Below are positions 3,088-19,332 of a DNA stretch of 64,000 bases, one piece after another (positions within the stretch are counted from its first letter, which is position 1; the number at the start of each line of letters is the position of its first letter). The position numbers were made by a program, and so were the translations under genes. The notes below the pieces were generated by a model. It did no database searches. It worked only from the letters and a program-made list of their open reading frames with translations, and had not been told where the DNA came from. Source of the stretch: Methylobacterium durans (GTDB lineage Bacteria; Pseudomonadota; Alphaproteobacteria; Rhizobiales; Beijerinckiaceae); NCBI RefSeq assembly GCF_003173715.1, contig NZ_CP029550.1:3891501-3955500 (forward strand), in the 5' to 3' direction.

Positions 3088-5078
3088 CAGTCGCCTGCCC
3101 CTGTCGCGAAGCCGAGCTCCCGCAGGGCCACCCTCGTCTCGGGCTCGGCGAGCAGGGCGAGGAAGACGGCGAGCCCGGGCTCGTTCGCCCGTTCCGCGCG
3201 GTAGGCCAGGTCGTAGTGCTCCTCCGTGAGCGGCAGGAACCCTAGCCCGTAGGCCCGCGCCACCCCTTCGATCGCCACACCCCAATCGGCCCGCCCCTGC
3301 GCGACCGCGGCGGCCACGGCGTTGTGCGAGCGCGGCTGGTTCCAGTAGCCCGCCGGGCGCCCGCCCTCGAGGAGCCCGTCGATCAGGAGGCGGGTGCCCG
3401 AGCCCGTGTTGCGGTTGACCATCACGGTCTCGGCATCCCCGGCGAGCGCCGCGACGGCCTCTGCCGCCCGGCGCCCGGCGAAGCGAGGATCGCCCGCACG
3501 GAACACCACGCCCTGCATCCGCCGCCAGCCCGGCGCGAGTCTCATCTCGGGCGCGAGGAAGGGCGCATTGTAGCGGCCGCTCTCCGGATCGAGGAGGTGC
3601 ATCGCGGTGAGGTCGCACTCGCCCCGCTTGAGAGCGGCGAGCCCGCCGGCCGAGCCGACCCAGATGGTGCGGGCGCGGTAGCCGCGGTCGGCGAGCAGTC
3701 CGACCACCCGGTCGAGCCCGAGGCAATGGCTGCCGACGATGGTGAGGTCGGGCGGCTTCACGCCCGCGCCGAGGCGGCTCACGGTCACGGCCTCGCCCGC
3801 CTCCAGCCCGGCCCGGTTGGCTGGGACGGGGAAGAAGCCGTCGGCCTGCGAGAAGGCCGTCACCGAGCCCGAGCCCTTCGGCAGGGGGAGCGCGACGAGG
3901 CCGTCCCCGGTCCGCGAAAGCGAGGCCATCACGAACTCCATGCGGCCGAGTTCGGACGGCACGCGCTGCGGCACGCGGGCCTCGACGCTTGCCTCCTCGC
4001 GCGGCGGCAGGCCGGCGAGCGCCCGCACCAGCGGCACCACGAACTCGTGGAAGGTGAACATCGCCGATGTCGGGAATCCCGGCAGCACCACGATCGCCTT
4101 CGTGCCGACCGCGGCGAGGCAGAGCGGCTTGCCGGGTTTCAAGGCGACACCGTGGACGAGGATCCCCGGCTCGCCGAGGCGCGAGAGGATGCGGTGCGAG
4201 ACGTCGCCCGCCCCTTTGGAGGTGCCGCCCGAGAGTACGACGAGATCGGCCGTCTCGAGGCTCTCGCGGATTGCGGTCTCGAGGCTCGCCTCGTCGTCCG
4301 CCACGATCCCGCCGGGCAACGCGACGCCGCCGTTCTCGGCGACGGATGCGGCGACGATGGCGCCGTTCGAATCGTAGATCGCGCCGGGCCTCAGCAGTGC
4401 GCCGGGCGCCATCAGCTCGTCGCCCGTCGAGAGCACGGCGACGCGGGGGCGCCGCACGACCGGCACACGGTCCAGCCCACAGGCGGCGAGCATGCCGATT
4501 TCCCGGGCGGTGAAGCGGACGCCCCGGCGAAGCACCGTCTCGCCGAGCGCCATGTCCGCGCCCGTGTAGCCGACGAACTGGCCGGGATTCGACGCCCGCG
4601 CGACCTCGATGGCGGGGCCGGCCGCGTCGCCCAGGAACTCCGTCGCCTCGACCATCACGACGGCGTCGGCGCCGCGCGGAATGACTCCGCCGGTGGCGAT
4701 CGGCGTGGCGGTGCCGGGCGCGACGGCGAGGTTCGGTGCGGTGCCGCAGGCCAGGATCTCGGCGTTCAGGCCGAGGCGGACGGGGCTGCCCTCGCGCGCG
4801 CTCTCGGTATCGGCGGCCCGCACGGCGAACCCGTCGACCAGCGAGCGGTCGAAGGGCGGCACGTCGATCGGAGAGGCGATGTCCTCGGCGAGCACCCGCC
4901 CGAGAGCCTCGGCAAGCAGCACGGTCTCGGCGGGCAGGGTGGCGTGGGGCACGGCGGCGCGAAAGCGCGCGGCCGCCTCCTCGCGGGAGAGCACGCTGAG
5001 GAACTGCTCCTGGCGGGCGACCTCGGACAGGCGCTCCAGGAACCCGGCCCGGGTTTCGTTCTGCGACGCATCACTCAC
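3087..5078 (-). CDS. MoeA fused to a C-terminal PBP-like domain
   Basis: A 663-residue two-domain protein. Residues about 25-435 are a MoeA domain with the active-site motifs intact (PPFDRSLVDGFAVR, LSTGDE at 217-221, YDSN at 235-238, LSGGTSKGAGD). Residues about 445-660 are a periplasmic-binding-protein-like domain with HCLGLDRVV and NRNTGSGTRL at 555-564. No signal peptide is seen, so the binding domain is cytoplasmic. Such MoeA-LysR-substrate-domain fusions are known in archaea and bacteria, but the ligand is not established. The 5' end overlaps the upstream gene by four bases (ATGA). The C-terminal domain resembles that of the regulator at 297-1289. Confidence 0.9.
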   Translation of the reverse strand: MSDASQNETRAGFLERLSEVARQEQFLSVLSREEAAARFRAAVPHATLPAETVLLAEALGRVLAEDIASPIDVPPFDRSLVDGFAVRAADTESAREGSPVRLGLNAEILACGTAPNLAVAPGTATPIATGGVIPRGADAVVMVEATEFLGDAAGPAIEVARASNPGQFVGYTGADMALGETVLRRGVRFTAREIGMLAACGLDRVPVVRRPRVAVLSTGDELMAPGALLRPGAIYDSNGAIVAASVAENGGVALPGGIVADDEASLETAIRESLETADLVVLSGGTSKGAGDVSHRILSRLGEPGILVHGVALKPGKPLCLAAVGTKAIVVLPGFPTSAMFTFHEFVVPLVRALAGLPPREEASVEARVPQRVPSELGRMEFVMASLSRTGDGLVALPLPKGSGSVTAFSQADGFFPVPANRAGLEAGEAVTVSRLGAGVKPPDLTIVGSHCLGLDRVVGLLADRGYRARTIWVGSAGGLAALKRGECDLTAMHLLDPESGRYNAPFLAPEMRLAPGWRRMQGVVFRAGDPRFAGRRAAEAVAALAGDAETVMVNRNTGSGTRLLIDGLLEGGRPAGYWNQPRSHNAVAAAVAQGRADWGVAIEGVARAYGLGFLPLTEEHYDLAYRAERANEPGLAVFLALLAEPETRVALRELGFATGAGD

Positions 5079-6238
5079 AGCGGCATGATCTCGACGGAGG
5101 TCCCCTCCGGATAGCCCTCCCGCTCGGGCGGGACCAGGATGGCGCCTCGTGCCAGGAGAAGGCGGTGCAGGGCAAGCTCGGCCGAGCCCAGGGGCTCGAC
5201 GCCGTCCCCGGCCTCGGCGACGAAGACGATCTCGGACAGACCGATCACCGAGGACACCTTGCGGCGCAGGGGGGCTGTCCGCGCGGGCGCCGCCGCCTCG
5301 CCGGCGAGCGCCTGCAGGAGCGGGCGCGCCAGCGCCAGGAAGACGGCGAGCATTGCCTCCGGCGCGCCGGGCAGGAGCAGCACCGGGCGGCCTTGCGCGT
5401 CGCCGAATCCCGCGCCTTCGCCGGGACGGAGGGCGATGCCGTGGGCCGCAAGGCTGCCGGCCTGCGCGAGCGCCGCGGCGCTGTGGTCCTCACGACCGAA
5501 GCCGGTGCCGCCGACGACGAGGGTGAGATCGGCCTCGTCCGCAGCGAGCGCGGCCGCGATGGCGTCCCGTCCCTCCGGCGCCGTCGCGACGGCCGACACG
5601 CACCCTCCGGCCTGTCCGACGAGATGACGCAGGACGGACGATCGGGCATCCGACCCTCCCCAGCGCGCCGGACCCGTCAGCAGGATGCCGACGCGCGGCA
5701 GGCATACGGGCACGCGCTCCAGCCCGGCGAGTGCCAGCGCCTGCAACGGGCCGATGCGCGTTCCGGCCGCGACGAGGCGGCCACCGGCAGCGAGATCGCC
5801 GGCGGGTGCCCGAGTGCCGTCTCCGGTGGGCGCATCCGCGACAATCTCAACGAGCGGGCCGGACTTCTCGATCGCCTCCGCGGTCAGGATCGTGTCGGTC
5901 CCCGCGGGCAGGGCGCAGCCGGCCTCGACCCAGACGGGCGGACCGGCAAGCGGCACCGGCGCGTAGGGCGAGGCGCCCACCACCTCCGCCCCGCGCACCG
6001 CCCAGCCGTCCCGCAGGGCGATCCGCGTGACCGGCCGGTCGGCGTCCGCGCGGATGTCCTCGGCGGCCACCCGGCCGATCGCCTCGGCGGGCGGCAGGCC
6101 GGTCGCCGCCACGGGCGCGACACCGCGCAGCAGGAGGGGCAATGCCTCCACGAGCGGCATCAGGGCCGTCGAGGCGGTGCGTCCTGTCATGGTCGGCCCG
6201 AAGGACGCGTCCCGGCCGTCCGGCGGGTTGGCCCGCAT
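5075..6238 (-). CDS. Divergent MoeA-like protein, active-site motifs degenerate
   Basis: A 387-residue MoeA-fold protein and the first gene of the four-gene minus-strand operon. It keeps the overall MoeA layout (EAIGRVAAEDI at 52-62, DGWAVR at 77-82, LLPGAPEAMLA near the C terminus). However, TGNE/TGDE is replaced by TGPA at 188-191, the DSN motif is missing, and SGGxS has become VGGTGFG at 242-248. Loss of the Glu of TGNE argues against normal molybdate ligation. It could be a cofactor-binding or chaperone paralogue. An alternative start, MTGRTAST, lies at 6190. It is divergent from the WD40-cytochrome gene with about 120 bases between starts. Confidence 0.82.
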   Translation of the reverse strand: MRANPPDGRDASFGPTMTGRTASTALMPLVEALPLLLRGVAPVAATGLPPAEAIGRVAAEDIRADADRPVTRIALRDGWAVRGAEVVGASPYAPVPLAGPPVWVEAGCALPAGTDTILTAEAIEKSGPLVEIVADAPTGDGTRAPAGDLAAGGRLVAAGTRIGPLQALALAGLERVPVCLPRVGILLTGPARWGGSDARSSVLRHLVGQAGGCVSAVATAPEGRDAIAAALAADEADLTLVVGGTGFGREDHSAAALAQAGSLAAHGIALRPGEGAGFGDAQGRPVLLLPGAPEAMLAVFLALARPLLQALAGEAAAPARTAPLRRKVSSVIGLSEIVFVAEAGDGVEPLGSAELALHRLLLARGAILVPPEREGYPEGTSVEIMPL

Positions 6239-6358: not shown

Positions 6359-7684
6359 ATGGTCGCGCGTCCAGCCGCCAGCCGCCGCGATGAGCCCTTG
6401 AGACGCGCCGCCTCCCTTCTCGCCCTGTCGCTTCTCTCCTGCAGCCTCGCCGGCCCCGCCGACGCGCAGCTGCGCGGTCACGGCGGCCCGGTCCGCGCCC
6501 TCGCGATCGCGCAGGACGGGCGGACGGCGCTGTCCGGGAGCTTCGACCAGTCGGCGATCCTGTGGTCGCTGGACGAGGGCACCGCCCGGCAGGTGCTGCG
6601 CTACCACGAGGGCGCGGTGAACGCCGTCCTGGCGCTCGCGGACGGGCGCCTGGCGACGGGCGGCGAGGACGGGCGGATCGCCCTCTGGCAGCCCGGGCAG
6701 ACTCGTCCCGTCGCGACCTTCACGGAGCACCAGGGCCCCGTCGTCGGGCTCGCGCTCTCCCCGGACGGGGCCGAGCTCGCTTCCGCCTCCTGGGATGGCA
6801 CGGCGCGGCTGCGCCCGCTCGCCGGCGGCGAGGCGCGCGTCTTCGAGGGGCACAAGGGCAACGTGAACGGCGTCGCCTTCACGCCCGACGGCCGGCTCGT
6901 CACGGCGGGCTACGACGCCACCCTGCGCATCTGGCTTCGCGACGGCTCGGATCCGACCCGAATCGTGACGTTGCCGACTCCCCTCAACGCGGTCGCGGCG
7001 GCGCCCGACGGCGAGATCGTGGCGGGCGGGGCCGACAGCATCGTCCGCCTGTTCTCGGCCGAGGGCGTCGAGCGAGCCGCGATCGAGATCGGCCCGAGCC
7101 CGATCATCGCGCTCGCGCTCTCCCCGGACGGGACCCGCGTCGCCGCGGCGACCGTCGCCGGCGCCGTGGCGGTGATCGACCGCCGGGCGGCCAAGCCCCT
7201 GTTCAACCTCGTCGGCCCCGGGCTGCCGGTCTGGTCGCTCGCTTTCCGCTCCGAGGCCGAGCTCGTGACAGGCGGCGGCGACCGGCTGATCCGGCGCTGG
7301 GACATGCGCAGCGGCGAGCCGATCGGCTCGCTGGCGATGAGTCGCCCCCACGACGAACTCGCGGCCTACGCGGGCGACCGGGGCGCGGAGGTGTTCCGGG
7401 CCTGCACCGCCTGCCACAGCCTGACGCCGGACGGGGGCAACCGCGCGGGCCCGACGCTCAGCGGCGTCTTCGGCCGGCGCATCGCCACGGCAGACGGCTA
7501 CAATTTCTCCGAGGCGCTCAGGAAGCTCGACATCGTCTGGAACGCCGAGACCATCGGCAAGCTCTTCGAGGTCGGCCCCGCCCGGTATACGTCGGGCACG
7601 AAGATGCCTGAGCAGATCGTCAGCAGCGCGGCCGACCGCGAGGCGCTGGTGCGCTTTCTGGAGAAGGCGACCCAGGCGCGCTGA
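6359..7684 (+). CDS. Periplasmic WD40-repeat protein fused to class I cytochrome c
   Basis: A 441-residue exported protein. An N-terminal signal segment (LLALSLLSCSLAGPADA, to about residue 36) could also be a poor lipobox at Cys28. Residues about 38-330 carry about seven WD40-like blades (repeated GHxGPV/ALSPDG/LW units). Residues about 335-441 are a class I cytochrome c with the heme motif CTACH at 349-353 and a likely axial Met in GTKMPEQ at 416. The gene is divergent from the moeA operon and convergent with the ferredoxin gene. It could accept electrons from formate oxidation or act as a scaffold for the periplasmic enzyme. The exact role is unknown. Confidence 0.85.
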   Translation: MVARPAASRRDEPLRRAASLLALSLLSCSLAGPADAQLRGHGGPVRALAIAQDGRTALSGSFDQSAILWSLDEGTARQVLRYHEGAVNAVLALADGRLATGGEDGRIALWQPGQTRPVATFTEHQGPVVGLALSPDGAELASASWDGTARLRPLAGGEARVFEGHKGNVNGVAFTPDGRLVTAGYDATLRIWLRDGSDPTRIVTLPTPLNAVAAAPDGEIVAGGADSIVRLFSAEGVERAAIEIGPSPIIALALSPDGTRVAAATVAGAVAVIDRRAAKPLFNLVGPGLPVWSLAFRSEAELVTGGGDRLIRRWDMRSGEPIGSLAMSRPHDELAAYAGDRGAEVFRACTACHSLTPDGGNRAGPTLSGVFGRRIATADGYNFSEALRKLDIVWNAETIGKLFEVGPARYTSGTKMPEQIVSSAADREALVRFLEKATQAR

Positions 7685-7733: not shown

Positions 7734-9773
7734 CTACACGCTCTGCCCATCCCGCGCCGCGCGCTCACGCAGGTAATCCTCGCTGGTGCGGGTCCTGGCG
7801 CGCTCCGGCGCGGCGTGCGGGTCGAAGCCCTGGTTGAGGGCCGCCTCGACGCGACAATCCTCGCACATCATCAGCGAGCGGATTCGCGCCTCGCCGGCCG
7901 CGCCCGCGAACATCCAGTGGTTGCCGCGCAGCTTCTCGATGACGCGCTCGATGGTGCTGCGCGTGCCGAAGCCCTTGCCGCAGGCGATGCAGTCGAAGGG
8001 CTCCTCCTCCTTCACGATCCGCCGCGGCTCGGCCCAGGCCGCGAAGTCGATCCGGGGCTGGAGCGTGATCACGTTCTCCGGGCAGGTCGCAGCGCAGAGG
8101 CCGCACTGGACGCAGAGGCTTTCCTCGAAGGCCAGGAGCGGCCGGTCCGCGCTGTCCGAGAGCGCGCTCGTCGGGCAGGCGCTGACGCAGGCGAGGCAGA
8201 GCGTGCACGCTTCCGTGCGGAAGGCGAGGCCGCCGAAGGGCGCGCCGGCCGCGAGAGGGACAGTGGAGACCGGGCTCGGCGCCGCGACTTGCAATTCGCG
8301 GACGCTCGTGCGCAGCACGCCGCGCTTGTCGCCTGCCGGCATGAAGCGGGCCGGGGTCGGCGCGGGCGTGCCGCGGGGAGCCGCGCGCAGGGCCTCGCCG
8401 AGGGCGTCCGGGTCATCGGTCTCGACCGTCGCGACGAGACCGGCCCCGGCAGGATCGTAGCCGAGGGCCCCGAGGAGGGTGTTCGTGAGGTCGAGAGTCG
8501 CCTGCAGGCTCGCGAGATCGTGCTTCGGCCGCGCCCTGAGAAGAAGCCGCGCGCCCACCGCGCCGTAGGCGAACAACGACGCGAAGACCTCGGGCCCGAG
8601 TTGCGTGACCTCGTTCACCCGGACGGGCAGGACGTTTGCCGGCAGGCCCTCGCCGTCGCGGGAGAGTGCGTGGATCAGCGGCTCGCCGTGGTCGCCGTCG
8701 TGGAACAGCACGATCCCGTCGAAACCGCCGGCTGCCTGGTAGGCGCCCATCAGGGTGCGCAGGCGCCGCAGCAGAGCATCGGCCGGCGGCAGGGCGTAGG
8801 AGGCGGCTCCCGTGGGGCAGAGGGCGGCGCAGGAGCCGCAGCCCGCGCAGACATAGGGGTCGATGGCGACGTGATCGCCGTTCGGGCTGATGGCGCCGGT
8901 CGGGCAGACGTCGAGGCAGCGGGTGCAGCCGGTGATGCGCGAGCGGGAATGCGCGCAGAGTTCCGCCCTGAAGTCGATGAAGCGCGCCTTGTCGAAGGTG
9001 CCGACGAGGTGCGACGCCTCGAAGAGCAGCGCCTCGACGGCCTTCGGGTCGCGCGGGTCCGCCCGCAGGTAGCCGCTGCGGGTCTCGTGCGCGGGAAACA
9101 GCGGCACGCCGCCGGTGAGGTCGATCACGAGGTCGCAGGTCGAGGTCGCGCCGTTGCGCGCTGGGCCGAACACGAGCGCCGAGCGCGAGGACGGGGCCGG
9201 CAGCGCGTAATCGTCGATACGCAGTTCGAAGGCGCCGAGATGGCCCTTTGCCGTCGTGATCGTCCCCTGCAGCACCGGGAAGTCGGCCCGCAGGGGCGGT
9301 GCCACCGGGCCGGGGCGGGACAGGAGCACGGTGATGTCGAGATGGTCCGCGAGCCGCCGCGCCGCGTCGATCGCGGTCTCGTCCCGCCCGTAGACCAGGG
9401 CGACGCCCGCGCTCTCCATCGTGACGAGGGCCGCCTCCGGCCGCGGCTCGGCCGCTGCGGCGAGAAGCGCGGCCATCTTCGGGCCGGCGGCCGCGCCGTC
9501 GACCGACCATCCGGCCATCTCGCGGATGTTGGCGAAGACGACGCGATCGGCGGCGCCGGCCTCTTCGGCGATCTCCTCGAAGAGCGGCGCCTGGAGGGTG
9601 CAGGCGACGGTCACCGGGCTGCCCGTCTCCAGGGTGCGGCGGTAGCGGTCGAGGTCGCGCCCGCAGAGCTGGTCCGCGGTGGCGAGCGTGCCGCCGCAGC
9701 CCTTGGCGAGGGCGGCCCCGTCGAGCGACATCGTCTTCTCGCAGGAACAGGCGATCACTGAACGGTCGGACAC
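7734..9773 (-). CDS. Multi-cluster 4Fe-4S ferredoxin of formate dehydrogenase clusters (FdhT-like)
   Basis: A 679-residue cytoplasmic iron-sulfur protein without signal or membrane segments. Two pairs of ferredoxin motifs are visible: CTRCLDVCP (283-291) with CAGCGSCAALCP (309-320), and, further on, CTLCLACVSACP with CVQCGLCAATCP. Extra Cys pairs occur at the N terminus (CSC at 9-11) and near the C terminus (CIAC, CEDC). Comparable large ferredoxins are encoded beside DUF3305/DUF3306 and periplasmic formate dehydrogenases in other proteobacteria. It is divergent from the accessory operon, with an 8-bp hairpin in the spacer. A role in enzyme maturation or electron delivery is inference. Confidence 0.85.
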   Translation of the reverse strand: MSDRSVIACSCEKTMSLDGAALAKGCGGTLATADQLCGRDLDRYRRTLETGSPVTVACTLQAPLFEEIAEEAGAADRVVFANIREMAGWSVDGAAAGPKMAALLAAAAEPRPEAALVTMESAGVALVYGRDETAIDAARRLADHLDITVLLSRPGPVAPPLRADFPVLQGTITTAKGHLGAFELRIDDYALPAPSSRSALVFGPARNGATSTCDLVIDLTGGVPLFPAHETRSGYLRADPRDPKAVEALLFEASHLVGTFDKARFIDFRAELCAHSRSRITGCTRCLDVCPTGAISPNGDHVAIDPYVCAGCGSCAALCPTGAASYALPPADALLRRLRTLMGAYQAAGGFDGIVLFHDGDHGEPLIHALSRDGEGLPANVLPVRVNEVTQLGPEVFASLFAYGAVGARLLLRARPKHDLASLQATLDLTNTLLGALGYDPAGAGLVATVETDDPDALGEALRAAPRGTPAPTPARFMPAGDKRGVLRTSVRELQVAAPSPVSTVPLAAGAPFGGLAFRTEACTLCLACVSACPTSALSDSADRPLLAFEESLCVQCGLCAATCPENVITLQPRIDFAAWAEPRRIVKEEEPFDCIACGKGFGTRSTIERVIEKLRGNHWMFAGAAGEARIRSLMMCEDCRVEAALNQGFDPHAAPERARTRTSEDYLRERAARDGQSV

Positions 9774-9790
9774 TGTGTCATCCCCAATTC

Positions 9791-9809
9791 CGGAGGCCCG
9801 TGGCCTCCG
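9791..9809. promoter_or_regulatory. Perfect 8-bp inverted repeat in divergent FDH spacer
   Basis: The arms CGGAGGCC (9791-9798) and GGCCTCCG (9802-9809) are separated by three bases. The repeat sits 17 bases upstream of the ferredoxin start on the minus strand and about 80 bases before the ligase-like gene on the plus strand. It could be an RNA hairpin in the ferredoxin leader, affecting ribosome access, or an operator. Only the symmetry is seen. Confidence 0.4.
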
Positions 9810-9890
9810 CGCGCTTGCAGCGGCTTCTTATACTCGAATAGGTCCAAACTGCGATTGAACAGATGGGCGCGAGGCTTGCGCGACGCCACG

Positions 9891-10646
9891 ATGACGAACC
9901 ACGCCGCGATGTCACAGGGCAGGCCGCTCGACCTGCCGCCGCTGTTCACGGCGATCACCGCCGAGCGGAGCGAGCGCGTCCACGCCGAGGCGTGCGGGAT
10001 GGCGGCACCCGAGGCGGCGGGCACGATCGTGCACGCGTTGTCCGGCGACTGCCCGGCCTTCGCGGTGGTGCTGGCGCCGGACGAACCCCTGGCGACCGCG
10101 CGGCGCGCCTTCATCGCCGCCATGGTGGCGCTTGGCGAGGCGGTCGGCGCACACGCGCCGCCGGAACGGGCGGTGCGGTTCGCCTACCCCGACGCACTCC
10201 TGTTCAACGAGGCGCGAATCGGCGGCGGCCGCCTGTCCTGGCCCTCCGATTGCCCGGAGCACGAGGCGCCGGCCTGGCTCGTCTTCTCGGCCATGCTGAT
10301 CGGCACGAAGCGGGATGCCGGCGATCCCGGCCTGACACCGGAGACGAGTTCGCTGGAGGAGGAGGGCTTCGAGATCGCGGATCGCGGCGTTCTCGTCGAG
10401 AGCTTCGCCCGCTACCTGATGCGGGCGGTCGAGACCTGGAACGGGCTCGGGTTCGAGGCTGTCGCCGCAGCCTTCTCGGACCAGTTGGTCCCGGACCTGT
10501 CCGGCGCCGGCCAGCACGTGGACGCGACGGGCGATCTCCTGACGGAGGATACGGGCGCACCCGGCGGGATCCGCCGCGACAGCCTCGCGGTCACCCTCGG
10601 CGCGGTCTCCTGGCTCGACGCGAAGAACGGGAGGCCCCGATTGTGA
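9891..10646 (+). CDS. Biotin/lipoate-ligase-like protein of the FDH accessory operon
   Basis: A 251-residue protein resembling the biotin/lipoate protein ligase fold, probably with a C-terminal DUF4444-like part. The segment YPDALLFNEARIGGG (about 103-117) aligns with the WPND...K-GGI motif of ligases, but Asn is replaced and the catalytic Lys position is Arg. The GRGRxGR loop is not seen. It is therefore likely a non-catalytic or altered family member. It starts the plus-strand accessory operon and its stop overlaps the next gene (GTGA). A TTG at 9855 could extend it by 12 residues. ATG 9891 is preferred, ATG 9909 is possible, and none has a strong ribosome site. Confidence 0.75.
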   Translation: MTNHAAMSQGRPLDLPPLFTAITAERSERVHAEACGMAAPEAAGTIVHALSGDCPAFAVVLAPDEPLATARRAFIAAMVALGEAVGAHAPPERAVRFAYPDALLFNEARIGGGRLSWPSDCPEHEAPAWLVFSAMLIGTKRDAGDPGLTPETSSLEEEGFEIADRGVLVESFARYLMRAVETWNGLGFEAVAAAFSDQLVPDLSGAGQHVDATGDLLTEDTGAPGGIRRDSLAVTLGAVSWLDAKNGRPRL

Positions 10647-11203
10647 GCGCGACCAAGCTGCCGCGGACGCTTCGCCTCGACCCTTCCGACACCTTCGTGT
10701 TCGCCAACGCCGCCGAGCCCGGCGAGTGGGCGGTGACGGGCTCGTTCCTGTTCTTCGACGTGGATTCGGACGCCCTGTCCCCGAAGGAGCGGGCCGCCTT
10801 CCGCTCGGGATTCCTCGGGACCGCCTCGTTCGGCTTCTCGACGCTCGTCGTCGTCAGCGAGGCGAGCGAGGCGGAGCGCGAGCAGGCGGTCTCGGCGCTG
10901 GCGCGGCACATCCTGGACAAGCTCGGCGCGCCGAGCGCTGAGGTCGCGCTGGCGGCCGCCGAGGAGGAGATCGCGGTGGCGGCCTCCCTCTGCGGCCCCC
11001 CGGTCGGGACGGTGATCGCGCTCACCCGCAGCATCGAAGGCGGAGAGCTGAGAGAGCGATTCCGGACGCTGCAGCGCCGGGAGGGCGTGCCCGGCGCCGA
11101 CCGGCTCCACGCCCATTCTCGCGCCTTCACCTTCGTCGAGACCGATGACGAGCCCGAGGAGAGCGTCGATCTCGTCGGGCTGATGGGGACGAATCCGCGA
11201 TGA
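10643..11203 (+). CDS. DUF6505 family protein
   Basis: A 186-residue cytoplasmic protein with no signal or membrane segment, recognised as the DUF6505 type found in formate dehydrogenase gene clusters. The function is unknown. The start is GTG at 10643, whose last two bases belong to the TGA of the preceding gene. The 3' end overlaps the next ATG by four bases. Visible features are RLDPSDTFVFANAAEPGEW near the N terminus, a GFST...VV strand and an Ala/Glu-rich helix in the middle. Tight coupling on both sides suggests stoichiometric synthesis with its neighbours. The family name is recalled from sequence resemblance. Confidence 0.8.
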   Translation: MSATKLPRTLRLDPSDTFVFANAAEPGEWAVTGSFLFFDVDSDALSPKERAAFRSGFLGTASFGFSTLVVVSEASEAEREQAVSALARHILDKLGAPSAEVALAAAEEEIAVAASLCGPPVGTVIALTRSIEGGELRERFRTLQRREGVPGADRLHAHSRAFTFVETDDEPEESVDLVGLMGTNPR

Positions 11204-12204
11204 CCGAGTTCTGGGTGTCCAGCGGCCATCATCTCGCCGGCCGCACGGAGGCCGGCGGCCTCGCGGTGACGGACGAGCTGCTCCTCGCCTATCTCGCCCG
11301 GCCGGAACTGTTGCCGCCGCCCGAGGCGTGCGACGCCGAGCGGGCGCTCCACGCCGCACTCCTCACCGATCCGCGCCGGCCCGTGCCGCCCGCGCAGGTG
11401 CGCGCGCTCAACGATCCGGACGCGGTCGAGAACTGGCAGGTGATCCTCGCCTTCCGCGACAGGCTCCTGAGCGCACGTTCGATCGAGGCGGCCTATCTCG
11501 ACCTCGTGCGGGGCGGCCTCGCGGGCACGCCCGGCCTCTTCCTCAACCAGCTCGTGCACCTCATCCTGCGCAACGCCCTCGACGGCTGCGAGGACCCCTA
11601 CACCCTGCGCGCCGCCGAACTGTTCTTCCGGCCGCAGCGGGTATCGCTCTCGGGCGGGGCGACACTCCTCGCCGATGCCGAGATCATCGAGGCGCGGGAG
11701 GCCGGCGCCTCGGCCTCGCCGCTGATGGCGATGTTCGGCGCCGAGCCCGCGGCGGAACTCGACGTGATGACGGACGAGAACGCCTGGACCTACTGGAGCC
11801 GGTCCGACGCCTTCACGATGGCGCTCAATCTCTCGGAGAATCCGCGGAGCCGCGACGGCCTCGCCCGCGCGATCGAGGCGTGGCTGCGCCACCTCCTGGC
11901 GCTGGAGACGACGGTCGAGCCGCTCGCGCGAATCGAGGAGCGGGACTGGCGCTGGTTCGTGGGCCTCGACGCGGAGGCGACCCGGATCGGAAACGCGCTC
12001 TGGCGCGGCGACGCGGTCGAGCCGGAAGCCCTGACCCGGGTCGTCGCGTTGTTCCGCATGACGGTAGCCGACGCCGGACGGATCGAGCGGACGATCGCCG
12101 GCCACCCTATCTATCTCTTGCTGGCGATGAGCCCGGACAAGCGCGTGACCCTGAAGCCCCAGAACCTCGTCGCGGGTCTGCCGCTCGTCGGCGCCGCGGC
12201 CTGA
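11200..12204 (+). CDS. DUF6352 family protein
   Basis: A 334-residue cytoplasmic protein of unknown function, recognised as the DUF6352 type that accompanies periplasmic formate dehydrogenases. It begins MTEFWVSSGHHLAGR and is mostly alpha-helical, with DENAWTYWSRSDAFTMAL near residues 190-207 and a C-terminal HPIYLLLAMSPDKR. There is no cofactor motif or membrane segment. The start overlaps the DUF6505 gene by four bases, and the next gene follows after 18 bases behind a strong GGAGGAG ribosome site. Overlapped position between DUF6505 and DUF3305 points to a role in assembly or maturation rather than catalysis. Confidence 0.8.
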   Translation: MTEFWVSSGHHLAGRTEAGGLAVTDELLLAYLARPELLPPPEACDAERALHAALLTDPRRPVPPAQVRALNDPDAVENWQVILAFRDRLLSARSIEAAYLDLVRGGLAGTPGLFLNQLVHLILRNALDGCEDPYTLRAAELFFRPQRVSLSGGATLLADAEIIEAREAGASASPLMAMFGAEPAAELDVMTDENAWTYWSRSDAFTMALNLSENPRSRDGLARAIEAWLRHLLALETTVEPLARIEERDWRWFVGLDAEATRIGNALWRGDAVEPEALTRVVALFRMTVADAGRIERTIAGHPIYLLLAMSPDKRVTLKPQNLVAGLPLVGAAA

Positions 12205-12222
12205 GGCGGAGGAGAAGGTCGA

Positions 12223-12732
12223 ATGCCGAAGGATCGTTTCCCGGTCGGCGTGATCGTGGCCCGGCGCAGGCTTAGGAGCCCCTGGGCGGATCACCAGTGG
12301 CTGCCGGTCGGCGCCCTGCCGGACATTCCCGAGACGGCGCCCTGGACCCTTCTCGCGTCTATTGAAGGCGAGGACCGGTTCTATGCCGGCGCCCATGAGG
12401 TCGGCCTGCACATCAGCGAGACCGGGCATTACCGCGACAACCTCGTCTCGGGACGGCCGTCGCTCTGGGTCGCCCTGCGGCCGGTCGCGGGCGACGCGTA
12501 CGAGGTCGCGACGGTCACGGCCGATCCCTACGAGGGCGAGGCGCTGGCAGAGGGCATCGGCGAGATCGTCGAGGCGGTGCCGATGCCGGAGTCGATCCAG
12601 GCCGCCGTCGCCGCGTTCGTTGACGCCTTCCACGTCGAGCGCACCTTCGAGAAGCGCAAGCGCGACCGCGCCGACCCGGAAGCCCTTGGGCGCCGCAACA
12701 TCGCGGCCGAGCGCGGAGGAGGCTCCGAATGA
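12223..12732 (+). CDS. DUF3305 family protein
   Basis: A 169-residue protein matching DUF3305, a small cytoplasmic family almost always paired with DUF3306 beside formate dehydrogenase genes. Typical features are FPVGVIVARRRLRSPWADHQW at the N terminus (variants of WxxxxWxPV), a central HEVGLHISETGHYRDNLVS and a C-terminal helix rich in Lys/Arg. The function is unestablished; the family pattern suggests an assembly factor. It is preceded by GGCGGAGGAGAAGG, and its stop overlaps the start of the DUF3306 gene by four bases. Confidence 0.88.
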   Translation: MPKDRFPVGVIVARRRLRSPWADHQWLPVGALPDIPETAPWTLLASIEGEDRFYAGAHEVGLHISETGHYRDNLVSGRPSLWVALRPVAGDAYEVATVTADPYEGEALAEGIGEIVEAVPMPESIQAAVAAFVDAFHVERTFEKRKRDRADPEALGRRNIAAERGGGSE

Positions 12733-13397
12733 GCGGCGGCGATTTCCTGGCGCGCTGGTCGCGCCGGAAGCGGGAGACGCAGGCGCCGCCTGCCGAGGCG
12801 AAGGCCGGGATCCTGCCGGACGATGCGGCCGAGGCACCCGAGCCTGGGGCCGAGGCGGCGATCACCGAGGAGGAGATCGCGGCGCTTCCTCCCCTCGATA
12901 CGCTGACCTCCGGTACCGATCTGACGCCCTTCCTGCGCAAGGGCGTCCCCGCCCTGCTGCGCAACGCGGCCCTGCGGCGGATGTGGTCGCTCGATCCGGC
13001 GATCCGGGACTACGTGAGCGAGGCGCGCGAATACGCCTACGACTGGAACGTCGTCGGTGGCGTTCCGGGCACCGGCCCGCTCCTGCCGACCGACGACGTC
13101 CGCGCGATGGTCGGCCGCATCTTCGGAGACGCGCCCGACGATCCACCTGAGATGTCAGGGACGCCGGAGACCGCATCGGACGCTGTCGAGACCGCGTCCA
13201 CTTCCCCCGATTCGGTCCCCGTCGCGGAGCCCGAAGACCTGCCCGCAGCGGAAGTTGCATCTAGCTCCGAAAACCAGCCCGCGTCGCTCGCCGGGCACGC
13301 GCAAGCCCCCGAACCACCCGCGGAAGCCGCTGCCGTGAGACAGAATCCCCAATCTCTCACGCGGGTGCGACGCCATGGGGGTGCGATTCCGATTTGA
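12729..13397 (+). CDS. DUF3306 family protein
   Basis: A 222-residue protein matching DUF3306. The conserved part is the N-terminal 145 residues: GGDFLARWSRRK at the start, then LPPLDTLTSGTDLTPFLRKG, LRRMWSLDPAIRDYV and DWNVVGG. It is followed by a Pro/Ser/Glu-rich tail of about 60 residues and a basic end, RVRRHGGAIPI. The tail looks disordered, the C-terminal RRHGGA motif may be a docking signal, and no enzyme motif is seen. The gene is coupled by overlap to DUF3305 and is the last gene before a 143-base gap holding a possible promoter for the structural genes. Confidence 0.88.
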   Translation: MSGGDFLARWSRRKRETQAPPAEAKAGILPDDAAEAPEPGAEAAITEEEIAALPPLDTLTSGTDLTPFLRKGVPALLRNAALRRMWSLDPAIRDYVSEAREYAYDWNVVGGVPGTGPLLPTDDVRAMVGRIFGDAPDDPPEMSGTPETASDAVETASTSPDSVPVAEPEDLPAAEVASSSENQPASLAGHAQAPEPPAEAAAVRQNPQSLTRVRRHGGAIPI

Positions 13398-13414
13398 ACT
13401 GCTCAAAAGTGAGA

Positions 13415-13449
13415 TTGCGGGCCGCCGGAACGCGTTTATAGTGTGCACA
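13415..13449 (+). promoter_or_regulatory. Possible sigma-70-type promoter with TGTGCACA palindrome, upstream of torD-fdhABC
   Basis: TTGCGG (13415-13420) and TATAGT (13437-13442) are separated by 16 bases, close to a housekeeping promoter. The -10 is immediately followed by the 8-base palindrome TGTGCACA (13442-13449), which could bind a regulator at the start site. It lies in the gap between the DUF3306 gene and the chaperone gene, so the catalytic genes may be transcribed separately from the accessory block. No experimental support. Confidence 0.45.
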
Positions 13450-13540
13450 ATGAATTCGGTCCGCGGGGGGCGCCTGCGGGTTGAGGAGCAAGATGCTGTC
13501 GGGTGCGTTGGGTCAGGGCGTTGCCGAAGGGGGAGTCGGC

Positions 13541-14125
13541 ATGGCTGCAACGGTCGACGAGGTCGATCTGCTGCGTTCGCGCCAGTACGACCTGCTCGCG
13601 ACCCTGCTCGGGCGCGTCCCCTGCGGGCACGTGCTCGCGCAGGTCGCAGGGCTTGAGGGGGACGGAACGCCGCTCGGGCAGGCGCTGGGCAGGCTCGGCA
13701 TCGCCGCGCGGAATGCCGACCCGCTGGCGATCGAGCGCGATCATTTCGAGACCTTCGTCGGGGTCGGGCGCGGCCGTCTCCTTCCTTACGCCTCCTACTA
13801 CCTTACGGGCTTCCTGAACGAGCGGCCGCTCGCCCGGGTGCGGGCGGATTTCGACGCGCTCGGGATCGAGCGTAGCGACGCCGTCAGCGAGCCGGAGGAT
13901 CACGTCGCGATCCTCCTGGAGGTGATGGCAGGGCTCGCCTCTGGCCGGATCGACGCGGAGCCGGGCGCCGAGGCGCGCTTCTTCGCACGGCACCTGCAGC
14001 CCTGGGCGCCGCGGTTCTTCGCGGATCTCGCGGAGCAGGCGGACACGGATTTCTTTCGGGCGGTCGGTGCCCTCGGCCAGGCCTTCCTGGAGATTGAGGT
14101 CGAAGCCTTCGCCCTGGACGCCTGA
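13541..14125 (+). CDS. TorD/DmsD-type chaperone for formate dehydrogenase
   Basis: A 194-residue helical protein of the TorD/DmsD/NarJ chaperone type. It shows the family pattern LRSRQYDLLATLLGR, an acidic YASYYLTGFLNERPLARV segment and EPEDHVAILLEVMAGL. These chaperones bind Tat signal peptides of molybdoenzymes and hold them until the cofactor is inserted. The gene lies directly upstream of the Tat-signal protein and fdhA, its expected client. ATG 13541 is chosen because GGGGGAG precedes it with five bases of spacing. In-frame starts at 13493 and 13481 (TTG) would add an unconserved N terminus. Confidence 0.88.
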   Translation: MAATVDEVDLLRSRQYDLLATLLGRVPCGHVLAQVAGLEGDGTPLGQALGRLGIAARNADPLAIERDHFETFVGVGRGRLLPYASYYLTGFLNERPLARVRADFDALGIERSDAVSEPEDHVAILLEVMAGLASGRIDAEPGAEARFFARHLQPWAPRFFADLAEQADTDFFRAVGALGQAFLEIEVEAFALDA

Positions 14126-14186
14126 CGGACCGGGAACGGGACGTCCGGGCGAGTGAAACGGATTTGACCAGTCGGGAGTGACGAGG

Positions 14187-14405
14187 ATGGCTCAGGAGAA
14201 GAAAGGCGAGATCGGTCGCCGCCAGTTCTTCCGCACGCTCGGCGGCGGCTCGGCGGTCGCGGCGGCGGGCCTGCTGTCGCCGATCTCGACGAACGAGGCC
14301 CAAGCCTACGATCCGGGGTCCGAGGAGACCAAGGCGCGGTATCGGGAGACCGACCATGTCAAGGCCTTCTACCGGACGAACGGCTACGAGACGCTGAAGA
14401 AGTGA
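14187..14405 (+). CDS. Small twin-arginine signal protein of formate dehydrogenase region
   Basis: A 72-residue protein with a Tat motif RRQFFRT at 11-17, a hydrophobic stretch (GGGSAVAAAGLL) and a short mature part (about 35 residues) ending in HVKAFYRTNGYETLKK. This is the recognised formate-dehydrogenase-region Tat protein (TIGR02811-like), regularly encoded just before fdhA. The function is unknown; it may be a small subunit or an export partner. ATG 14187 is preferred over the in-frame GTG at 14178, as GAG-GAGG precedes it closely. fdhA starts seven bases after its stop. Confidence 0.88.
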   Translation: MAQEKKGEIGRRQFFRTLGGGSAVAAAGLLSPISTNEAQAYDPGSEETKARYRETDHVKAFYRTNGYETLKK

Positions 14406-14412: not shown

Positions 14413-17355
14413 ATGCTGATCAAGCGCAAGAGCGGCGAGGCGAGCCGCACGAAACATCAGGCCATCGCCGCCGGTCTCGCCGCCGGCGTCCTCGATCGCC
14501 GCTCCTTCCTGCGGAAATCCGGCCTCGCGGCGGGCGGCCTCGCCGTCGCCGGCTCGATCCAGCTCGGCTCGGTGCGGAAAGCCCAGGCCGCTGGCTCCGC
14601 CGTGAGCGGGTCCGAGGTGACGGTGAGGAAGAACATCTGCACCCACTGCTCGGTCGGCTGCACGGTGACGGCCGAGGTCGTCAACGGCGTCTGGGTCGGG
14701 CAGGAGCCCTCCTACGCGAGCCCGATCAACCGCGGCACGCACTGCGCCAAGGGCGCGGCGATCCGCGAGCTCGTCCACGGCGAGCGGCGGCTCAAATACC
14801 CGATGAAGCTCGTCGGCGGCCAGTGGACCAAGATCTCCTGGGATCAGGCGATCGACGAGATCGGCGACAAGATCACCGCCATCCGTGAGAAGTCGGGCTC
14901 CGATTCCGTCTACTGGCTCGGCTCGGCCAAGTTCACGAACGAGGCCTCGTACCTGTTCCGCAAGCTCGGCGCCTTCTGGGGCACCAACTCGGTCGACCAC
15001 CAGGCACGCATCTGCCACTCGACCACGGTGGCGGGCGTGGCCAACACCTGGGGCTACGGCGCCCAGACCAATTCCTACAACGACATCCGCAACGCCAAGA
15101 CCATGATCATCATGGGCGGCAATCCGGCGGAGGCGCACCCGGTCTCCCTGCAGCACGTGCTGTCGGGCAAGGAGATCAACCGCGCCAACATGATCGTCAT
15201 CGATCCGCGCTTCACCCGCACGGCCGCGCACGCCACCGAGTACGTGCGCATCCGCTCCGGCACCGACATCCCGGTGATCTGGGGCATGCTCTGGCACATC
15301 TTCCAGAACGGCTGGGAGGACAAGGAATTCATCCGCCAGCGCGTCTACGCGATGGACGACGTTCGCAAGGAAGTCGCCAAGTGGACGCCCGACGAGGTCG
15401 AGCGCGTCACCGGCGTGCCGGGCGAGCAACTGAAGCGCGTCGCCGAGATCTTCTCGAAGGAGAAGCCCGCGACCCTGATCTGGTGCATGGGCGCGACCCA
15501 GCACACGGTCGGCACCGCGAACGTGCGCGCCTTCTGCATCCTCTGCCTTGCCACCGGCAACGTCGGCAAGCCGGGCACCGGCGCCAACATCTTCCGCGGC
15601 CACACCAACGTGCAGGGCGCCACCGATCTCGGCCTCGATGTGACGACGCTGCCGCTCTATTACGGCCTCGTCGAGGGCGCCTGGAAGCACTGGGCCCGCG
15701 TCTGGGACGTCGAGTACGAGTGGCTGCAATCGCGCTTCGATGAGATCCCGGCCAAGGGCGGCCGCAAGGCCCGCACCCGCAAGGAGAACATGGAGGCGCC
15801 GGGCATCACCTCGACGCGCTGGTTCGACGCGGTGAACCTGCCCGACGACCAGATCGACCAGAGAAGCCCGATCAAGGCGATGATGGTGTTCGGCCACGGC
15901 GGCAACACCGTCACCCGCCTGCCGGACGCCATCGCCGGCATGAACAAGCTCGAACTCCTCGTGGTCGCCGATCCGCATCCGACCACGTTCGCGGCGCTCG
16001 ATGCCCGGCAGGACAACACCTATCTGCTGCCGATCTGCACGACGCTCGAATGCGACGGCTCGCGCACGGCCTCGAACCGTTCGATCCAGTGGGGCGAGAC
16101 GATCGTCAAGCCGGCCTTCGAGTCGAAGACCGACTACGAGGTCATGTACCGGCTCGCGACGAAGCTCGGCTTCGGCGAGAAGATGTTCAAGGGCATCAAG
16201 GTCGAGAACAGCGTGCCGGTGGCCGAGGACATCCTCCGCGAGATCAACCGCGGCGGCTGGTCGACGGGCTATTGCGGGCAATCGCCCGAGCGCCTCAAGG
16301 CGCACATGAAGAACCAGCACAAGTTCGACCTCGTGACGCTGCGCGCCCCGAAGGACGACCCTGAGGTCGGCGGCGACTATTACGGCCTGCCCTGGCCCTG
16401 CTGGGGCAAGCCGGAGATCCGCCATCCGGGATCCCACATCCTCTACAACACCAACCTGCACGTAAAGGACGGCGGCGGCTGCTTCCGCGCCCGCTTCGGC
16501 GTCGAGCGCAACGGCCAGACGCTGCTGGCGGAGGATTCCTTCAGCAAGGGCTCGGACCTGACCGACGGGTATCCCGAGTTCACGATGGGCGTCTTCAAGA
16601 AGCTCGGCTGGGACAAGGACCTCACGGCCGAGGAGATGGCGGTCATCACGAAGATCGGCGGCAACAACATCGATGCGGTGAGCTGGGCGACCGACCTGTC
16701 GGGCGGCATCCAGCGCGTTTGCCTCGATCACGGGGTCGTGCCCTACGGCAACGGCAAGGCCCGGGCGAATGCCTGGAACCTGCCCGACCCGGTGCCGGTC
16801 CACCGCGAGCCGATCTACACGCCCCGGCCCGACCTCGTGGCGAAGTACCCGACCCGGCCGGACGACCGCCAGTTCCGGATGCCCAATATCGGCTTCTCGG
16901 TGCAGAAGGCGGCTGTCGACCGGGAGGTCGCCAAGAACTTCCCGATCATCCTCACCTCGGGCCGGCTCGTCGAGTACGAGGGCGGCGGCGAGGAGACCCG
17001 CTCGAACCCGTGGCTCGCCGAGCTCCAGCAGGAGATGTTCGTCGAGATCAACACCAAGGACGCGGCAGAACGCGGCATCAAGGACGGCCAGTGGGTCTGG
17101 GTGTCCGGGCCGGAGGACGGCACGCAGACCAAGGTGAAGGCCCTCGTGACGGACCGCGTCGGCAAGGGCGTGGCCTTCATGCCCTTCCACTTCTCCGGCT
17201 GGTACCAGGGCAAGGACATGCGCCAGTACTACCCGGCGGGCACCGATCCCGTGGTCCTCGGCGAGAGCGTGAACACGATCACCACCTACGGTTTCGATCC
17301 TGTGACCGGCATGCAGGAGCCGAAAGCCACCCTCTGTCAGATCCGGGCGGCGTAA
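14413..17355 (+). CDS. fdhA: Periplasmic formate dehydrogenase catalytic subunit alpha
   Basis: A 980-residue molybdopterin oxidoreductase that oxidises formate to CO2. The Tat signal DRRSFLRKSG starts at residue 28. The 4Fe-4S ligands are Cys76, Cys79, Cys83 and Cys111 (CTHCSVGC...HCAKG). The active-site pair is Cys201-His202 in ARICHSTTVAG, so this is a cysteine, not a selenocysteine, enzyme. The length and the following fdhB and fdhC match the Fdh3-type cytochrome-linked enzyme of Methylobacterium. The metal (Mo or W) cannot be read from sequence, although the nearby tungstate-type permease makes W possible. Confidence 0.96.
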   Translation: MLIKRKSGEASRTKHQAIAAGLAAGVLDRRSFLRKSGLAAGGLAVAGSIQLGSVRKAQAAGSAVSGSEVTVRKNICTHCSVGCTVTAEVVNGVWVGQEPSYASPINRGTHCAKGAAIRELVHGERRLKYPMKLVGGQWTKISWDQAIDEIGDKITAIREKSGSDSVYWLGSAKFTNEASYLFRKLGAFWGTNSVDHQARICHSTTVAGVANTWGYGAQTNSYNDIRNAKTMIIMGGNPAEAHPVSLQHVLSGKEINRANMIVIDPRFTRTAAHATEYVRIRSGTDIPVIWGMLWHIFQNGWEDKEFIRQRVYAMDDVRKEVAKWTPDEVERVTGVPGEQLKRVAEIFSKEKPATLIWCMGATQHTVGTANVRAFCILCLATGNVGKPGTGANIFRGHTNVQGATDLGLDVTTLPLYYGLVEGAWKHWARVWDVEYEWLQSRFDEIPAKGGRKARTRKENMEAPGITSTRWFDAVNLPDDQIDQRSPIKAMMVFGHGGNTVTRLPDAIAGMNKLELLVVADPHPTTFAALDARQDNTYLLPICTTLECDGSRTASNRSIQWGETIVKPAFESKTDYEVMYRLATKLGFGEKMFKGIKVENSVPVAEDILREINRGGWSTGYCGQSPERLKAHMKNQHKFDLVTLRAPKDDPEVGGDYYGLPWPCWGKPEIRHPGSHILYNTNLHVKDGGGCFRARFGVERNGQTLLAEDSFSKGSDLTDGYPEFTMGVFKKLGWDKDLTAEEMAVITKIGGNNIDAVSWATDLSGGIQRVCLDHGVVPYGNGKARANAWNLPDPVPVHREPIYTPRPDLVAKYPTRPDDRQFRMPNIGFSVQKAAVDREVAKNFPIILTSGRLVEYEGGGEETRSNPWLAELQQEMFVEINTKDAAERGIKDGQWVWVSGPEDGTQTKVKALVTDRVGKGVAFMPFHFSGWYQGKDMRQYYPAGTDPVVLGESVNTITTYGFDPVTGMQEPKATLCQIRAA

Positions 17356-17370: not shown

Positions 17371-17967
17371 ATGGCACGCATGAAGTTTCTCTGCGACGCG
17401 GACCGCTGCATCGAGTGCAACGCCTGCGTCACCGCCTGCAAGAACGAGCACGAGGTGCCGTGGGGCATCAACCGCCGCCGCGTGGTCACGCTCAACGACG
17501 GCAAACCGGGCGAGCGCTCGGTCTCGATGGCCTGCATGCACTGCACGGACGCGCCCTGCGCCTCCGTCTGCCCGGTCAACTGCTTCTACACCACGGCGGA
17601 TGCCGTGGTGCTGCATTCCAAGGACCTCTGCATCGGCTGCGGCTACTGCTTCTACGCCTGCCCGTTCGGAGCGCCGCAATATCCGCGGGTCGGGAATTTC
17701 GGCTCGCGCGGCAAGATGGACAAGTGCACCTACTGCGCGGGAGGGCCCGAGCCCGACCTCTCGACCATCGAGTACGAGAAGTACGGTTCGAACCGCCTCG
17801 CCGAGGGCAAGCTGCCGCTCTGCGCCGAGATGTGCTCGACCAAGGCGCTGCTCGCCGGCGACGGCGAGATGATCGCCCAGATCTACAAGGAGCGCGTGAT
17901 CAAGCGCGGCTACGGCTCGGGTGCGTGGGGCTGGAAGACGGCCTACCGCGAGACCGTGGCGATCTGA
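17371..17967 (+). CDS. fdhB: Formate dehydrogenase iron-sulfur subunit beta
   Basis: A 198-residue electron-transfer subunit predicted to carry four 4Fe-4S clusters. The Cys groups are CIECNACVTACK (13-24), CMHCTDAPCASVCPVNC, CIGCGYCFYACPFG and CTYC with a later CAEMC. It passes electrons from the alpha subunit to the membrane cytochrome b. It has no Tat signal of its own, so it is presumably exported bound to FdhA. It lies 15 bases after fdhA and 53 bases before fdhC in one operon. Confidence 0.95.
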   Translation: MARMKFLCDADRCIECNACVTACKNEHEVPWGINRRRVVTLNDGKPGERSVSMACMHCTDAPCASVCPVNCFYTTADAVVLHSKDLCIGCGYCFYACPFGAPQYPRVGNFGSRGKMDKCTYCAGGPEPDLSTIEYEKYGSNRLAEGKLPLCAEMCSTKALLAGDGEMIAQIYKERVIKRGYGSGAWGWKTAYRETVAI

Positions 17968-19110: not shown

Positions 19111-19332
19111 ATGAAAGCGTTCGCTGTCGCCGTCATCTGCGCCGTGGCGATCGGCATCGCCGCCGCGTACATCCTGTCGGGCAGCCAGCGCTTCGCGTGG
19201 CAGGCCTTCTCGACCTCGTCGACCCGGGTCTCGCAGCCGGGCACGAACCTCGTCGGCCCCCGCTGGACCGGCGACGTGAAGGGTCCGCACGACGAGGTGG
19301 CGGGCGAGCACCCGGCGCCGAAGCGCTCCTGA
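19111..19332 (+). CDS. Small membrane-anchored protein after fdhC
   Basis: A 73-residue protein with one N-terminal helix (AVAVICAVAIGIAAAYIL) and a hydrophilic tail rich in Ser, Pro and Gly, probably facing the periplasm. It follows fdhC by 52 bases with a GGGAGGAAACC ribosome site, and its stop overlaps the next ATG (TGATG). The operon position suggests a small accessory subunit of the formate dehydrogenase, but no family was recognised with certainty. Confidence 0.7.
   Translation: MKAFAVAVICAVAIGIAAAYILSGSQRFAWQAFSTSSTRVSQPGTNLVGPRWTGDVKGPHDEVAGEHPAPKRS

Follow-up and report, generated by a model that had tools for sequence, protein, structure and literature searches.

The genes considered here lie in a stretch of 64,000 nucleotides of Methylobacterium durans DNA (the window; positions below are counted from its first letter). 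They comprise a coupled run of five uncharacterised genes, a multi-cluster ferredoxin gene facing the run, and the genes of a formate dehydrogenase (FDH) whose catalytic subunit carries a signal for export by the twin-arginine translocation (Tat) pathway. We consider it very probable that this block is a maturation system dedicated to this FDH. Our preferred reading, to which we assign a probability of roughly one half, is a biogenesis system specific to this enzyme and organised in two tiers, which would load the Tat-exported FDH in the cytoplasm. The figure is set at one half because the split into a station for the bis-molybdopterin guanine dinucleotide (bis-MGD) cofactor and a station for iron-sulfur (Fe-S) clusters is something that we infer.

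The five genes of the run lie on the plus strand and encode, in this order, a biotin protein ligase (BPL)-like protein of the family BPL_LplA_LipB_2 (PF16917; 9891-10646, ATG start, E 1e-53), a DUF6505 protein (10643-11203, GTG start, E 4e-56), a DUF6352 protein (11200-12204, E 6e-59), a DUF3305 protein (12223-12732, E 6e-39) and a DUF3306 protein (12729-13397, E 3e-17); all five Pfam matches are above the cut-offs. The first three genes overlap successively by 4 and 4 bases, a gap of 18 bases follows, and the last two again overlap by 4 bases. The ferredoxin gene (7734-9773, minus strand; 679 aa) is divergent from the run, with 117 bases to the BPL-like gene. On the other side, 143 bases separate the DUF3306 gene from that of a TorD/NarJ-family chaperone (13541-14125, plus strand; PF02613, E 1e-29, the TorD models being below cut-off), which is followed by a small Tat-signal protein and by fdhABC. 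An earlier note on this DNA, made from the letters alone, had described such a coupled run facing a ferredoxin and leading to these genes, and the coordinates and family matches bear this out; it placed the start of the block at 9734, which falls inside the ferredoxin gene.

Dedication is supported by co-occurrence. We used two samples, one of 200 Pseudomonadota genomes from 109 genera (the phylum sample) and one of 240 alphaproteobacterial genomes from 203 genera (the class sample), both uneven in kinship; five genomes are common to both, and the union contains 53 genomes with FdhA. Family searches were run at the default E of 0.001, and FdhA was called at a chosen E of <=1e-100. Genomes and loci are cited by our own numbers (G and L). 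In the phylum sample, FdhA, DUF3305 and DUF3306 were each found in 22 genomes, belonging to 14 of the 109 genera, and the three lists are identical; the hypergeometric chance of identical lists is about 9e-30 if kinship is ignored. In the class sample, FdhA was found in 36 genomes from 32 genera, and DUF3305 was present in 36/36 of these, vs 0/21 of the FdhA-negative genomes tested, five of which had been picked for their DUF6352 or DUF6505 matches. DUF3306 was scored in this sample from the fetched loci rather than genome-wide; every one of the 53 FdhA-positive genomes has both DUF3305 and DUF3306 in its fetched loci, and they are adjacent in 53 neighbour pairs. The same loci hold the TorD gene in 52 genomes, the small Tat peptide in 51 and the ferredoxin in 47. 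In G264, DUF3305 and DUF3306 lie with TorD, ferredoxin, mobB and moeA genes about 40 kb from fdhA, and thus the dedication of the pair does not rest on linkage alone. In the genomes searched, DUF3305 and DUF3306 thus occur wherever FdhA does and nowhere else, as FDH-dedicated families would. The C-terminal RRHGGAxP tail of DUF3306 is kept in only part of the set.

The three remaining families of the run, BPL-like, DUF6505 and DUF6352 (hereafter the module), are nearly confined to FdhA-positive genomes as well. In the phylum sample all of their carriers have FdhA (DUF6352 9/9, DUF6505 15/15, FDH-type BPL 14/14). PF16917 itself matched 120 of the 200 genomes, and only 14 matches exceeded 160 bits, all of them in FdhA-positive genomes; the next best match, at 96 bits in G016, was considered as FDH-type and dropped, being an ordinary BirA with ligase motifs. 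FDH-type BPL was searched genome-wide in the phylum sample only. In the class sample, DUF6352 was found in 31 genomes, 30 of them FdhA-positive; the exception (G206) is an assembly of 810 contigs in which DUF6352 adjoins pieces of a WD40-cytochrome c gene. DUF6505 was found in 26 genomes, in 24 of them over the cut-off, and 22 of these have FdhA; the two exceptions are G307, where the gene has an in-frame stop, and G411, which is 80% complete. The stop-bearing DUF6505 of G307 (L113) lies in a 1.9-Mb genome without FdhA and looks like a decaying remnant. The earlier note had named frequent occurrence of the families in genomes lacking this enzyme as the outcome that would speak against dedication; the surveys returned DUF3305 in 0/178 and 0/21, DUF6352 in 1/204 and DUF6505 (over the cut-off) in 2/204 of the FdhA-negative genomes. 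Its claim that the families are dedicated to this FDH is thus supported by near-exclusive co-occurrence, and also by neighbours that are maturation genes: TorD, and in relatives also FdhD, MobA, MobB, MoeA and ApbC.

At least one module family is present in 44 of the 53 FdhA-positive genomes. In 26 same-strand neighbour pairs the gene after BPL is that of DUF6505. Of the 36 FdhA-positive genomes with DUF6352, 15 have it only away from the stretch that bears fdhA; a contig break may explain six of these, and in the others (G016, G019, G243, G294, G316, G323, G345, G416 and G419) it is far from fdhA or on another long contig. As DUF6352 goes with FdhA even in genomes where the two genes are unlinked, their co-occurrence is not just hitch-hiking. 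The motif KPQN near the C-terminus of DUF6352 is invariant in 35 aligned sequences; the DUF6352 protein of the window is 92% identical to that of Methylobacterium sp. BE186, and named matches of its DUF6505 protein point to Methylobacterium as well. The module is optional, loosely knit and FDH-specific, and presence or absence of the module as a label needs 4 changes on the FdhA tree (by a quick method).

A third set of loci was obtained by running the DUF6505 profile against the species genomes of GTDB and taking, out of 491 confirmed places, the 80 with the best scores (the named loci); these are best-scoring relatives rather than a random draw, and many are cut by contig ends. Their genera include Methylobacterium, Methylorubrum, Bradyrhizobium, Afipia, Bosea and Aurantimonas. 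Within Methylorubrum, M. rhodesianum (L233), M. aminovorans (L268) and M. rhodinum (L269) carry the block. In the named loci of at least 20 kb, fdhA, fdhB, fdhC, DUF3305, DUF3306, TorD, ferredoxin and DUF6352 are present in 49/49 and BPL in 48/49; fdhA is present in 67 of the 80 overall. The gene order is kept across many genera, and thus the arrangement is not due to chance.

The BPL-like protein was called ligase-like in the earlier note, which is right as to family and fold: besides the PF16917 match, its profile finds BirA chains (E 4e-8) and matches PDB 3BFM, a protein of unknown function, along almost all of its length (E 1.5e-85). The ligase residues, however, are lost. We compared 34 survey rows (33 distinct) and 78 named rows, 112 rows and 110 distinct proteins in all, with 16 BirA-type controls, which were the best PF16917 matches below the FDH-type. 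The loop G[RK]GRxGR, which we take to bind ATP and biotin, is found in 0/34 survey and 0/78 named proteins vs 15/16 controls. Of the two lysines that are presumably catalytic, that of GxKxxG is found in 0/34 and 0/78 vs 16/16, and that of KWPND in 0/34 and 1/78 vs 16/16. In a 23-sequence alignment, none of the columns that are invariant or nearly so is a lysine or cysteine. From these residues, the FDH-type BPL is predicted to be a pseudo-ligase and not a biotin or lipoate ligase.

The ferredoxin and an accessory carrier may connect the module with Fe-S clusters. The ferredoxin of the window holds four Fer4 stretches, and 19 of its cysteines are invariant in 43/43 relatives, with a 20th kept in 38. 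An additional N-terminal domain with C9/C11/C37/C58 is present, by alignment, in 41/47 survey and 75/76 named relatives (a cruder CxC pattern gave 67/72 named ferredoxins). This domain is absent in 0/38 genomes with the module vs 6/9 without it (Fisher 7.8e-6, kinship uncorrected); a smaller count of 43 ferredoxins gave 0/34 vs 6/9 (p 1.4e-5). The ferredoxin of L094 (G019) contains an insertion of two further cysteine-rich motifs between its N-terminal and middle parts.

A second ApbC/NUBPL gene occurs in 7 of 22 genomes, each time within the cluster, between ferredoxin and BPL, and in 6/7 it overlaps BPL by 4 bases. In 9 neighbour pairs the gene before that of the pseudo-ligase is ApbC, and detached units of the order ApbC-BPL-DUF6505-DUF6352 are found in G323 and G419 (L104 and L105). 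Clustered ApbC was counted in 11 survey genomes after three of 14 had been removed (G383, a 44-bit match; G249, at a locus end; G019, the only copy and about 19 kb from fdhA); clustered copies keep the P-loop and the CxxC motif, the latter in all 11 copies of the set compared. ApbC adjoins the ferredoxin in 19/80 named loci; these belong to Bradyrhizobium, Afipia, Beijerinckiaceae and a small number of further Hyphomicrobiales. We built a tree from 21 copies in the cluster (of the 19 named copies, 10 were used) and 18 housekeeping copies, omitting two long branches. On this tree location has to change 5 times (between 4 and 6 times in bootstraps; a smaller tree gave 3), and thus repeated recruitment into the block is likely. 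That an ApbC/NUBPL carrier likely joined the block repeatedly, as judged from this tree, is new here, as is the distribution of the N-terminal domain of the ferredoxin. The clustered ApbC of one non-alphaproteobacterial genus (L085-L087) falls among the clustered copies of Alphaproteobacteria, which points to transfer of the island as a whole. In M. durans itself ApbC is a housekeeping gene, while in some relatives it is encoded in the block. We also considered ApbC and DUF6352 as mutual substitutes, as 7 vs 7 of the 14 genomes with FDH-type BPL in the phylum sample had the one or the other; this failed, since both are present in L104, L105 and the 19 ApbC-bearing named loci.

A connection of DUF3305 with the molybdenum cofactor is suggested by gene fusion and gene order. 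NCBIfam NF011058 is a 382-position model of MobA with a DUF3305 domain, and the DUF3305 protein of the window matches its positions 221-368 (E 1e-21). MobA lies directly 5' of DUF3305 in 4 loci, FdhD lies 5' of MobA in 13, and in a single locus (L122) MobA and BPL overlap.

In the two-tier reading, DUF3305 and DUF3306 would form the obligate tier and, together with TorD, would hold apo-FdhA while it receives bis-MGD from MobA, with sulfuration by FdhD, before Tat export. In the optional tier, the BPL-like protein, DUF6505 and DUF6352 would act with the ferredoxin and ApbC/NUBPL to support [4Fe-4S] loading of FdhA and FdhB, the BPL-like protein being a ligase fold repurposed for binding or docking. 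Stated more narrowly, and only tentatively, the module may represent a previously unrecognised Fe-S delivery branch parallel to the DUF3305/DUF3306-TorD station fed with bis-MGD by MobA, in which pseudo-ligase, DUF6505 and DUF6352 would dock ApbC/NUBPL and the N-terminal domain of the ferredoxin onto apo-FDH.

Several observations weigh against this reading. BPL-like, DUF6505 and DUF6352 were all unfound in 9 of the 53 FdhA-positive genomes, in three of which (G264, G377 and G412) BPL was looked for in the fetched loci only; one of the genomes without the module is G111, though all three families are present in its two sampled congeners, G035 and G159. As the FDH persists in these genomes, the optional tier is dispensable somewhere, and the five families, which the earlier note had joined in a maturation machine, are not all obligatory. 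The module is also not a tight unit: in the fetched loci of the 53 genomes, BPL occurs without DUF6505 in 4, DUF6505 without BPL in 3, and DUF6352 alone in 8. Profile comparison gave no homology of DUF6352 to TorD, or of DUF6505 to DUF3305 or BPL, and neither single proteins nor profiles retrieved a convincing relative of DUF6352 or DUF6505 from the PDB (nor, in the same searches, of DUF3305). As for the ferredoxin, it is found with FdhA whether the module is there or not, as scored from fetched loci, and the six ferredoxins without the N-terminal domain may represent only one or two events, because their FdhA proteins cluster on the tree. The ferredoxin of L254 (Aurantimonas manganoxydans) does not have this domain in spite of DUF6505 and DUF6352; its locus is rearranged, its ferredoxin is short, and it is the sole full-length named locus without BPL. 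L254 thus breaks the rule that the domain is missing only without the module, yet it fits a link of the domain to the pseudo-ligase itself. The clustered ApbC of G323, G419 and G335 may be the only copy in those genomes, no ApbC, FdhD or MobA gene is present within the 64 kb window, and the Afipia ApbC-ferredoxin transcript carries FdhD and MobA too. Assigning the two tiers to cofactor and Fe-S steps is guilt by association.

One alternative is that the block is a maturation system in which every component works on the molybdenum cofactor, and that the ferredoxin and ApbC supply electrons or energy for bis-MGD transfer, sulfuration or quality control. The moeA, mobB, mobA and fdhD neighbours in many loci, the MobA-DUF3305 fusion family and the MobA-BPL overlap in L122 are what such a system would look like, but Pfam describes ApbC as an iron-transfer NTPase, and its repeated recruitment, with the CxxC kept in all 11 clustered copies of the set compared, and the four Fer4 stretches of the ferredoxin are more readily connected with Fe-S clusters; we regard this explanation as rather unlikely. 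An enzymatic role for the BPL-like protein, as an active transferase of another cofactor or acyl group onto DUF6505 or DUF6352 in a new modification needed for the FDH, would agree with its frequent pairing with DUF6505 and with a profile that still finds BirA structures. The absence of the loop and of the GxK lysine from 112/112 rows (110/110 distinct proteins), and of any nearly invariant lysine or cysteine, makes it improbable.

The ferredoxin and its associates could, on the other hand, be a cytoplasmic electron branch or redox sensor of the enzyme, with the DUF proteins stabilising the complex. The constancy of the ferredoxin in the fetched loci (47/53) is in favour of this. The E. coli ferredoxins HydN and YsaA are described, in the part of the source available, as interacting with FDH-H and raising its dye-linked activity (PMC6004506), and therefore ferredoxins beside FDHs can be partners. 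However, FdhA has a Tat signal and the ferredoxin has no evident signal, so the two are expected on opposite sides of the membrane, and fdhC already gives a membrane route; we give this possibility little credence. Least probable of all, in our judgement, is mere co-inheritance of unrelated DUF genes on a mobile island. The island probably does move between lineages, as the nesting of ApbC across classes indicates, but the families still accompany FdhA where long contigs show them to be unlinked from it, and DUF3305 is kept in G264 at its distance from fdhA. The two-tier reading is preferred to these four.

The ferredoxin, BPL-like, DUF and TorD proteins have no twin-arginine motif in a pattern search and no strongly hydrophobic segment, the maximal mean hydropathy over 19 residues being 0.5-1.7; this suggests that they are cytoplasmic, although the hydropathy evidence is weak because the leader of FdhA itself scores only 1.2. 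FdhA carries the twin-arginine leader RRSFLRK. It has a cysteine within ARICHSTT, which we take to be the selenocysteine/cysteine site; the FdhA matches of both surveys are free of stops and were therefore taken as cysteine-type enzymes. The fdhA gene (14413-17355, plus strand) encodes a Mo/W-bis-MGD FDH catalytic subunit (match to PDB 9vap_A, 1243 bits) and starts 7 bases past the end, at 14405, of the gene of the small Tat-signal protein. The latter (14187-14405, plus strand, with an alternative GTG start at 14178) matches the model 'formate dehydrogenase region TAT target' (TIGR02811, 56.3 bits, cut-off 48.45). The iron-sulfur subunit gene fdhB (17371-17967, plus strand) and the cytochrome b subunit gene fdhC (about 18021-19058, plus strand, start read by eye; TIGR01583, 151.6 bits, cut-off 115.85) follow. 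Second, divergent FdhA copies were seen in L118 (G368) and L119 (G345), with 47% and 56% identity; that of L118 has its own FdhD-MobA-Tat genes, and none of DUF3305, DUF3306, TorD or ferredoxin was seen in either fetched locus.

The genes that the earlier note listed around the block are present; it left uncounted those of the left flank, namely a WD40-cytochrome c gene, three moeA-like genes, mobB and a LysR-N/PBP-like regulator (PBP, periplasmic binding protein). The first of these (about 6359-7684, plus strand) encodes WD40 repeats, a cytochrome c domain and what looks like a signal peptide; its start and the signal were assigned by eye, and the WD40 and Cytochrom_C Pfam matches cover 6434-7684. 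In other genomes it lies less than 150 bases after fdhC in 13 loci, and it is present in 49/80 named loci. The protein is probably a periplasmic partner of the FDH, and possibly its electron partner. The molybdenum cofactor genes moeA, mobB, a moeA-PBP fusion and a moeA-like gene occupy 1296-6238 on the minus strand. The PBP-like family PF12727 is common to the moeA fusion (3087-5078) and the regulator (231-1289), and these flanking genes perhaps serve in molybdate or tungstate sensing. After fdhC, the window encodes one short hydrophobic protein and one Pro/Ala-rich putative secreted protein (19111-19982); both recur after fdhC in many named loci, mostly of Methylobacterium and Methylorubrum.

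A search of open-access literature by family name and topic gave no functional description of these families in titles or abstract openings. In 2015, DUF3305/DUF3306 were noted as a putative membrane protein pair in 60% of dmsD-fdhGHI-linked operons (PMC4464133, in the part available); DUF6352 and DUF6505 are absent from the text of that paper. Unlike that description, DUF3305 and DUF3306 here have no strongly hydrophobic segment, and they track FdhA one to one. In the accessible part of a transposon study of C. necator, the fdh operon had no fitness effect on formate (PMC11540253), and therefore those data are uninformative on helper genes; what is available of PMC12445348 gives only fdh3 transcript levels. 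Metal-dependent FDHs are wanted for CO2 reduction, and an alpha-subunit that is unstable or poorly matured can limit their heterologous production, as described in the available part of a report on a different enzyme, Me-FDH1 (PMC13396061). The list of helpers obtained here, with constant DUF3305 and DUF3306, optional pseudo-ligase, DUF6505, DUF6352 and ApbC, plus the ferredoxin, is directly testable in this respect. It also suggests what four Pfam families without assigned function, and the orphan structure 3BFM, might do.

Among the known systems closest to the block are the operons of redox enzyme maturation proteins of the NarJ subfamily (TorD, DmsD and NarJ), with which it has in common a TorD chaperone, a Tat-exported bis-MGD enzyme and helper genes; a TorD-family gene lies in the operon and a twin-arginine signal on the catalytic subunit, as is characteristic of NarJ/TorD systems. 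The hand-over by FdsC/FdhD and MobA is comparable in that FdhD and MobA genes are present in many of the FDH loci, and different in that neither is in this window; we know of no counterpart of DUF3305/DUF3306 in the Fds system. NapF acts alongside the periplasmic nitrate reductase and is likewise a multi-cluster ferredoxin encoded beside a Tat-exported bis-MGD enzyme. Unlike NapF, the ferredoxin of the block has 679 aa, an extra N-terminal CxC/C/C domain and a C-terminal CxxC...CxxC, and it scores 45.5 bits with the NapF model, the cut-off being 102.2. The FDH-type BPL is of the same type as the BirA/LplA fold and PDB 3BFM, and differs from the ligases by its missing active-site residues. Finally, the clustered ApbC copies keep the P-loop and CxxC of ApbC/Mrp/NUBPL carriers; unlike those carriers, they are extra copies within an FDH island, encoded beside a pseudo-ligase.

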